DNA of 64,000 nucleotides, taken from the NCBI GenBank assembly GCA_016234445.1, contig JACRBT010000014.1:62001-126000 (forward strand), read 5' to 3'. Positions 8,989 to 15,261 of this stretch are shown here, one piece after another. The stretch is from Chloroflexota bacterium (GTDB lineage Bacteria; Chloroflexota; Dehalococcoidia; Tepidiformales; Tepidiformaceae). The notes under the pieces were generated by a model. It was not told the origin of the DNA and made no database searches. It saw only the letters and a program-made list of their open reading frames with translations. The translations under genes and the position numbers were made by a program. How positions within the stretch are numbered: the stretch's first letter is position 1; every line of letters starts with the position of its first letter.

Positions 8989-9107
8989 GAGTGCTGAGTG
9001 CTCAGTGCTCAGTGCGAAGTACCGAGTACCGAGTACCGAGTACCGAGGTCCGAGTCTTGAGGCCTAAGTCCCAAGTCCTGAGTCCTCAGCACTCAGCACT
9101 CAGCACT
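8989..9107. repeat. Heptanucleotide repeat tract, 17 units
   Basis: 119 bp, exactly 17 contiguous degenerate 7-mers without a phase break. Units drift from gagtgct through cagtgct, gagtacc, gaggtcc, aagtcct to cagcact; most fit [GAC]AG[TGC]NC[TC]. The left end (gagtgct) and right end (agcactc) are reverse complements, so the tract can fold into one long hairpin. It fills almost the whole gap between the stop of the HTH gene (9110) and the corA start. Confidence 0.85.
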
Positions 9108-9109
9108 CC

Positions 9110-9391
9110 CTAGTCGCGGGCGTGGCGGAGGACGCGGAAGATGGTGCGCCGGGAGAGGCCGAACATCTGGGCGAGGCCGTCGACGGTGACGCCGTCCTGG
9201 CGGGCGAGGCGAAGGATGCTGGCATCGCGGCCGGTGCGGAGCATCGCGGCGGCGCCGCCGGGGTCGTCGTAGCGGCAGCGGGGCAACTGGCAGCTGAGGC
9301 AGGAGGGGTAGAGGCTGCACCCTTTGTCGGCGTAGTCCACGTATTCGGGGAGCGCGTCGATGCGGGAGGGAAGTTCGAGCGGCGTGTCCAT
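9110..9391 (-). CDS. Small Cys-cluster helix-turn-helix protein under an SOS-type promoter
   Basis: A 93-residue protein not matched to a named family. The N-terminal half holds four Cys in CSLYPSCLSCQLPRC (CX5CX2CX4C), a plausible zinc or Fe-S site. The C-terminal third reads as a helix-turn-helix: DGVTVDGLAQMFGLSRRTIFRVLRHA. Start ATG 9391 has GGAGG 7 nt upstream. Its promoter (9444-9472) carries a perfect LexA-type dyad between -35 and -10, so DNA-damage induction is likely. A small metal- or redox-sensing transcription factor is the most economical reading; its targets are not visible. Confidence 0.8.
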   Translation of the reverse strand: MDTPLELPSRIDALPEYVDYADKGCSLYPSCLSCQLPRCRYDDPGGAAAMLRTGRDASILRLARQDGVTVDGLAQMFGLSRRTIFRVLRHARD

Positions 9392-9443
9392 GCGGTTGCC
9401 TCCATCCTCCCCGTGGCCGCGGGGAGCCCCGTCTTGGGAAGTC

Positions 9444-9472
9444 AGATTAGAACGGATGTTCTAAGGAATCAA
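9444..9472 (-). promoter_or_regulatory. SOS promoter with LexA-type box
   Basis: On the minus strand TTGATT (9467-9472), 17 nt, TAATCT (9444-9449). Between and overlapping them lies the dyad TTAGAAC-GGAT-GTTCTAA (9447-9464), which contains the GAAC-N4-GTTC core of Gram-positive-type LexA boxes. It drives the 9110-9391 gene, 53 nt downstream. Confidence 0.8.
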
Positions 9473-9622
9473 CCGGCAACTTGCGCCCGGATGGGCCAAA
9501 GCGACAGGGGGTGACGGGCCAGGCGGCCCCCACCCGGGATGTTCCCGGTTGGGAAGAGGACGCGGCCAAATAGGGGTGCTCCCCGATGGAGCGGGCCACG
9601 CGGTAGGCGCATATTCGGCACC

Positions 9623-14262: not shown

Positions 14263-14292
14263 TTGACGGAATTAGAACAGATGTTCTATATT
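14263..14292 (+). promoter_or_regulatory. SOS promoter with LexA-type box
   Basis: TTGACG (14263-14268), 18 nt, TATATT (14287-14292). The spacer contains the dyad TAGAAC-AGAT-GTTCTA (14273-14288), a GAAC-N4-GTTC LexA-type box. It has the same architecture as the 9444-9472 promoter and lies 27 nt upstream of the ImuB-like gene. Confidence 0.85.
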
Positions 14293-14319: not shown

Positions 14320-15261
14320 ATGCGAACCCTCTGCCTCTATCTTCCCCGTCTCGCCACCAGCCTCGCCGTGCGGCAGCGTCCCCAGGCCGAGGGGCTCCCG
14401 GTGGCCCTGCTCGCCGGGACCGGGGCCGACGCCCTGGTGAGCGCGGTTTCGAGCGAAGCCGCCGCCGCCGGGCTCATCCCCGGGATGGCCGCCGGCGAGG
14501 CCCGCCGCCGCTGCCCGAACGCCGCCTTTCTCCCGGACAACGCCGCCGCCAGCCTCGACGAAATCGAACGCCTTGCCGGTATTGTCGCAACCTACGCGAC
14601 ACCGCTTGTCGCAGCCGGCGGGCGCGACCACCTCTTCGTCTCCCTCGACGGTCTCGAAGCGCGCTTCGGCGACGAGTCGACAGCCGCGGCCCGCATCGCC
14701 ACCCGGGCCCGCGCCTGGGCCGGGAGCGACGTCCGCGCGGGGGTGGGGAGTTCCCGGGCGCTGGCCCTCCGTGCCGCCCGCTGCGCCCACCGTTACCCCC
14801 TGGTCGACGACCAGGCGGCAGACGCCGAACCGCCGCTGCCCGCGTTCCGGGCGGCGCCGGAATCGCTTACCGCGTCGACGAAACTGCCGGCGCCCCTGGC
14901 GGTTGAGCATCTCGACACCGCCCTCGGCGCCTTCGCGCGCCGGACCGACATCCTCCTCGGCGGGCGCAGCTTCCGCCGGGTCGAGGTCGAAGTCACCACC
15001 CCGGAGGGGACTTTCGCCCTCCGCGCGGCCCCGTTGCAGCCGCTGCACAGCGTCGCCGAGGCGCTCGCGCTGGTTGGCCCTCGGCTCTCGGCTGCTGCAG
15101 GCGTCACGGAGGCGAAGGCCGTGCGGCTGACGCTGGGAGCGCTTGCCCCCGATGTCCGCGTGCGCGGGGGAGCACCGATGGCCGCGGCAAGGATGTCGCG
15201 GGCTGCCGAGCCGCCGCCAGTGCGTCGGGCCCGGCAGATGTTGCTGCGCGCGGCGAGCTAG
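14320..15261 (+). CDS. ImuB-like Y-family DNA polymerase homologue
   Basis: A 313-residue Y-family protein beginning MRTLCLYLPRLATSLAVRQRP, the position where active polymerases have DMDAFFA. The first metal-binding Asp is missing, and the second motif, normally SIDE, reads VSLDGLEARFG. It therefore looks like the catalytically inactive ImuB branch, the beta-clamp-binding scaffold of the ImuA/ImuB/DnaE2 mutasome. It is shorter than typical ImuB, and the thumb/finger region before the little finger is compressed. ATG 14320 has GGGAGG upstream; an earlier in-frame start at 14248 would lie upstream of the promoter and is rejected. imuA and dnaE2 are not in the window. Confidence 0.8.
   Translation: MRTLCLYLPRLATSLAVRQRPQAEGLPVALLAGTGADALVSAVSSEAAAAGLIPGMAAGEARRRCPNAAFLPDNAAASLDEIERLAGIVATYATPLVAAGGRDHLFVSLDGLEARFGDESTAAARIATRARAWAGSDVRAGVGSSRALALRAARCAHRYPLVDDQAADAEPPLPAFRAAPESLTASTKLPAPLAVEHLDTALGAFARRTDILLGGRSFRRVEVEVTTPEGTFALRAAPLQPLHSVAEALALVGPRLSAAAGVTEAKAVRLTLGALAPDVRVRGGAPMAAARMSRAAEPPPVRRARQMLLRAAS

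Follow-up and report, generated by a model that had tools for sequence, protein, structure and literature searches.

A Cys-cluster HTH gene lies behind a LexA-like box

The window, by which we mean the whole 64-kb stretch of DNA analysed here, carries on its minus strand a gene for a 93-residue protein (P0001) in which four cysteines, spaced C25-X5-C31-X2-C34-X4-C39, precede a C-terminal HTH; we refer to it as the Cys-HTH protein (Table 1). A first-pass annotation of the sequence had described this protein and its promoter, and both are present as described: the promoter TTGATT-N17-TAATCT is found on the minus strand, and a perfect 18-bp dyad, TTAGAAC-ATCC-GTTCTAA, lies between its -35 and -10 elements and overlaps them, the spacer GGAT of that annotation being the plus-strand reading of ATCC. 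Between the gene and corA, which follows it downstream, positions 8989–9108 are occupied by short degenerate repeats (gagtgctcagtgct / gtaccgagtaccga).

Profile searches, which the annotation had proposed as a check, recovered the HTH, with HTH_23 above its Pfam cut-off, and yielded nothing further for the cysteine domain: no family matched the N-terminal part of the protein, and across Pfam, NCBIfam, PHROGs, PADLOC and the PDB the cysteine domain drew generic HTH matches at most. All four cysteines are nevertheless invariant in our alignment (A7), and the cluster they form may bind Zn or Fe-S. AlphaFold predicted helices at residues 47–66, 70–77 and 81–92, with pLDDT of about 87–95 over residues 51–90; the three-helix HTH is thus confident while the cysteine region is poorly resolved (mean pLDDT 72.4). 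Fold matches of the HTH domain in the PDB were weak (DeoR, sigma region 4 and resolvase HTHs), as was a PHROG match to a late transcriptional activator family (E 0.0012) that covers the HTH and leaves the cysteine cluster unmatched. Among 50,697 records of known phages, the Cys-HTH protein found no match.

Table 1 Features of the Cys-HTH locus and of the comparison locus in the window.
Feature	Position	Strand	Basis
Cys-cluster HTH protein gene (P0001), 93 aa	9110..9391	-	ORF and translation
CX5CX2CX4C, codons 25-39, four invariant Cys	9275..9319	-	Alignment A7
Three-helix HTH domain, codons 47-92	9116..9253	-	AlphaFold
Ribosome binding site GGAGG	9399..9403	-	Sequence
-10 element TAATCT	9444..9449	-	Sequence
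LexA box TTAGAACATCCGTTCTAA	9447..9464	.	Sequence and conservation in orthologues
-35 element TTGATT	9467..9472	-	Sequence
GTGMCA box, weak copy GCGCAA (4/6), 8 bp before -35	9481..9486	-	Clearer in other lineages
imuB-like promoter, second LexA box core (comparison)	14275..14286	.	Core search
imuB-like Y-family polymerase gene (comparison, SOS regulon)	14320..15261	+	PF00817, E 2.6e-18

The box is conserved across the family and shared with SOS genes

The GAAC-N4-GTTC core occurs twice in the 64-kb window against 0.83 expected, so its count alone is no proof of SOS control; the second copy sits, as had been claimed, at the imuB-like promoter. Conservation of the box across family members settles this doubt. 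Searching at the protein level, we recovered family members from 62 of 99 genomes. In all 30 usable orthologues from the window's own family (loci L001–L028, L064 and L065), a box that agrees with the core at 7 or more of its 8 bases stands a short way upstream of the gene, and many distant orthologues keep a box as well; orthologues lacking the box were what the annotation had said would count against it. Of 138 distinct family members, 39 have as their best upstream box a site that agrees at 12 or more of the 14 specified bases, a score reached in none of 2,760 shuffles.

In the window's genome, imuB-like, dnaE2-like, dinB-like, uvrA and radical-SAM genes, named from their translations and in the case of imuB by Pfam, are each preceded by a site that departs from TAGAACNNNNGTTCTA at no more than one position. 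Box-like sites lie just upstream of lexA (8/8 core bases) and upstream of recA (7/8). The SOS control first suggested by the dyad is strongly supported, the box persisting among orthologues and recurring at other SOS genes, and from the sequences we regard control of the Cys-HTH gene by LexA, which would bind the box at 9447–9464, as near certain. LexA-like boxes are also carried by two further genes of this genome, judged from their translations to be DUF5131/Gp37-Gp68-like (L189, G000:C1:187817) and TcmP-like (L195, G000:C1:189551).

Relatives of the regulator sit among phage head genes

Strong whole-protein matches to the Cys-HTH family were confined to the class Dehalococcoidia. In most families beyond the window's own, neighbourhood clustering places the gene between TerL-like and SPP1-type portal genes; the portal at these loci matches SPP1_portal (E 3.7e-28), and the terminase matches PHROG terminase families more weakly. 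Many loci of this type have no LexA box, while others have one before the HTH-portal unit, in Dehalococcoides-like and Dehalogenimonas-like genomes among others. As for the regulator being itself the TerS of the cluster, a distinct TerS candidate directly precedes TerL in about 30 loci, though this candidate itself matches PHROGs weakly (E 0.014).

Across the 99 genomes, most of which are MAGs, gene and particle-gene module were both present in 55 and both absent in 24, with 7 and 13 holding one only (odds ratio 14.5, Fisher p 5e-8, uncorrected for kinship). The module occurs with no detectable Cys-HTH gene in G008 (96% completeness), G040, G055 and G077, where the absence may reflect assembly gaps or be real; conversely, G013, G051 and G086 have the gene and no module.

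Several loci have arrangements of their own. In genus g12 (L018–L024), ruvB adjoins the Cys-HTH gene downstream, apparently in one operon. One Dehalogenimonas-like genome has a transposase-like gene inside its particle gene cluster (L204:8341-9612), and a Dehalococcoides-like locus (L203:6676-11203) combines the regulator and terminase genes with a portal that is truncated and joined to a tail-like part; lacking a capsid gene, the module of these Dehalococcoides-like genomes is decayed.

Particle genes of the window's family are dispersed and probably domesticated

The window's genome (G000) holds one portal (C1:164369), one capsid (C9:56860), one terminase (C14:38340) and one adaptor gene (C1:202410), all far from each other and from the regulator; genes near the portal resemble ordinary host genes when their translations are read by eye. 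Nearly one copy of each particle gene per genome is the pattern across most of the window's family, Tepidiformaceae, and in some of its genera several of them lie within a few kilobases. Portal, major capsid and SU10_adaptor-type adaptor all score above Pfam cut-offs; the capsid also hits major head proteins in PHROGs (E 3.8e-71) as well as Phage_capsid and shares about 40% identity with siphophage capsids, and the terminase falls below its Pfam cut-off with a best PHROG match of E 3e-9. Tail parts amount to one tail-like gene and a 70-aa gene in some genomes; neither a tape measure nor a full tail set was seen.

Pairwise distances of the particle genes track those of RecA (Mantel r 0.63–0.89, p 0.001), and dN/dS of the four genes is about 0.01–0.35 in most pairs, with TerL reaching 0.58. 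The portal frame is interrupted or split in G017, G019, G026, G032, G015 and G005, which may reflect decay or sequencing error. We considered a defective recent prophage and set it aside: decayed copies exist, yet domestication better explains why the copies are single and scattered, with distances like those of RecA and dN/dS that is mostly low. That the particle genes of this family are domesticated, vertically inherited and mostly under purifying selection is well supported by these sequence comparisons. Their dispersal as single genes makes self-transfer of the full gene set implausible.

A promoter motif is shared by the dispersed genes

The upstream regions of terminase, portal, capsid and adaptor genes, four classes unrelated to one another, have in common a motif, GTGMCA-N8-TTSGAG, recognised by eye and then by expectation-maximisation, that lies about -50 from the start codon of terminase and adaptor and about -72 from that of portal and capsid. 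Training on either half of the data returned the same motif position and consensus. When each class was left out in turn and scored against a threshold from 1,096 control upstreams, 15/15 portal, 17/17 adaptor, 20/21 capsid and 11/22 TerL upstreams lay above the 99th percentile, TerL upstreams carrying the motif less well than the other classes; capsid and terminase of genus g12 are not independent here, because the two genes are divergent and have one site in common. Three of the four particle genes in G000 outscored every control, and the terminase was within the top 2%. At 16 bits or more, 48 matches fell at module genes against 3 elsewhere in 862 kb, and two of those three were also module genes. 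The only match of this strength outside module genes, at 18.9 bits, belongs to a leaderless 63-aa ORF (L211:10778-10969). A search of four whole genomes for a wider regulon by consensus pattern proved too unspecific (G000 gave 97 matches, and the reversed control 38) and was abandoned.

The left half of the motif also reaches the regulator. Among 47 LexA-box promoters of the Cys-HTH gene, 21 contain GTGMCA-N7..9-TTG with at least 5/6 matches, against 1.2% of shuffles; the half-site is weak at G000's own Cys-HTH promoter, and the imuB upstream also has a GTGACG-like match. In G000 no LexA site was found near any of the four particle genes. At L121, L125, L139, L146 and L208, a GTGMCA box and a LexA-like box together precede the TerS-side promoter, and at L208 the terminase operon so equipped, with a GTGCCA box and a LexA box, is headed by a 97-aa membrane-protein-like ORF (L208:17788-17495). 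G008, with no detectable Cys-HTH gene, retains the motif at portal and adaptor and, more weakly, at capsid.

A damage-induced activator of particle genes is proposed

The first-pass annotation had suggested that the protein could relay DNA damage to a second tier of genes. The dispersed phage head genes with their common promoter motif, at which, we infer, the regulator binds, lend indirect support to such a tier, and in a more specific form than had been suggested. On balance, we think it probable that the Cys-HTH protein is a LexA-repressed, damage-induced transcription factor whose targets are domesticated, GTA-like particle genes. DNA damage would remove LexA and allow the Cys-HTH protein to be made; the protein would then bind GTGMCA, the half-site that precedes the -35 by about 8 bp, and recruit RNA polymerase at promoters whose -35 (TTSGAG) is weak, so activating the particle genes of its own genome, and would act likewise on its own promoter. 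Particles would be made and host DNA packaged. LexA boxes on the promoters of some clustered modules make damage induction look ancestral, and in the simplest history direct LexA control of a cluster would have been replaced, in the window's family, by control through the regulator. A broader version of this proposal, in which the system is an ancient, class-wide GTA of the Dehalococcoidia, damage-induced through LexA and a Cys-cluster activator, with dispersed genes under one shared promoter, is plausible from the genomes compared, if somewhat less likely than not.

The most durable alternative, which we nonetheless consider unlikely, is that the protein is an SOS-induced packaging or assembly factor resembling a small terminase, and that the motif belongs to another regulator or to an alternative sigma factor. 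Small terminases also contain HTHs, the Cys-HTH gene stands between TerL and portal genes, and genomes of the G008 type have module and motif with no detectable Cys-HTH gene. This reading must, however, accommodate the separate, weakly matched TerS candidate directly before TerL, the GTGMCA box that precedes the Cys-HTH gene itself, and the fact that, among these genes in the window's genome, Cys-HTH alone has a LexA box.

Repression of the module by the Cys-HTH protein, such that SOS induction keeps particle genes quiet during repair, seems improbable: the motif site adjoins and partly covers the -35, a position that repressors use too, but the poor -35 of the module promoters suggests that an activator is needed, and promoters of this type carry a LexA box in some genomes whose genes are clustered. 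We give similarly little weight to an SOS regulator of host repair genes such as ruvB that has no working link to phage genes. The g12 arrangement with ruvB and the retention of gene and box in G013, which has no module, speak for it; elsewhere, however, the neighbours are phage head genes, gene and module co-occur strongly, and the shared box ties the regulator to module promoters. It is highly improbable that the dyad arose as a palindrome by chance, with the gene outside SOS control: although two cores in 64 kb are not significantly above expectation, the box recurs in every usable family orthologue and in distant lineages, and no shuffle reached the conserved-box score.

Comparison with known systems

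If true, LexA control of an activator of particle genes would make a single dedicated protein the direct link from DNA damage to particle production. Some Dehalococcoidia are employed to clean up chlorinated pollutants, a setting in which gene exchange matters in practice, and prophage activation in a Dehalococcoides culture was reportedly described by Waller et al. in 2012. To our knowledge, a GTA-like system in Chloroflexota would be the first; the open-access literature that we searched, in which subscription journals are largely missing, describes none.

Among small regulators, the WhiB-type Fe-S proteins are also Cys4 proteins that act near the -35 with sigma region 4. The Cys-HTH protein differs from them in its CX5CX2CX4C spacing and in having a true HTH, and the Whib profile gave no match to it in Pfam scans. 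Phage late activators of the RinA/ArpU type are small HTH proteins encoded near terminase genes; the resemblance to these is confined to the HTH, as in the weak late-activator PHROG match above.

Closer in role are the activators of known GTAs. In Caulobacter crescentus, the host-encoded GafY and GafZ switch on a set of domesticated phage genes in two tiers, and GafY contacts RpoD; one main cluster is among the targets, and the GafY element is located far upstream, with IHF in between (PMC11150451). The regulator proposed here would likewise be host-encoded and act on domesticated phage genes in two tiers, a likeness of role only: unlike GafY/GafZ, it is a 93-aa Cys4-HTH protein almost certainly under LexA control, and its putative targets are single genes, each with a box beside the -35 of its promoter. 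GafA, the dedicated activator of Rhodobacter capsulatus RcGTA, is modular, autoregulates and contacts RNA polymerase omega (PMC9638019); a dedicated, autoregulating activator is also what we propose, again a likeness of role. GTAs have been recognised as viriforms, with Caudoviricete-derived genes inherited vertically with the host (PMC9662315). The phage-derived genes of the putative particle described here are similarly inherited with their host, and differ from those viriforms in belonging to the class Dehalococcoidia, in being dispersed as single units in the window's family, and in combining a siphophage-type capsid (phrog_212) with an SPP1-type portal and an SU10-type adaptor.
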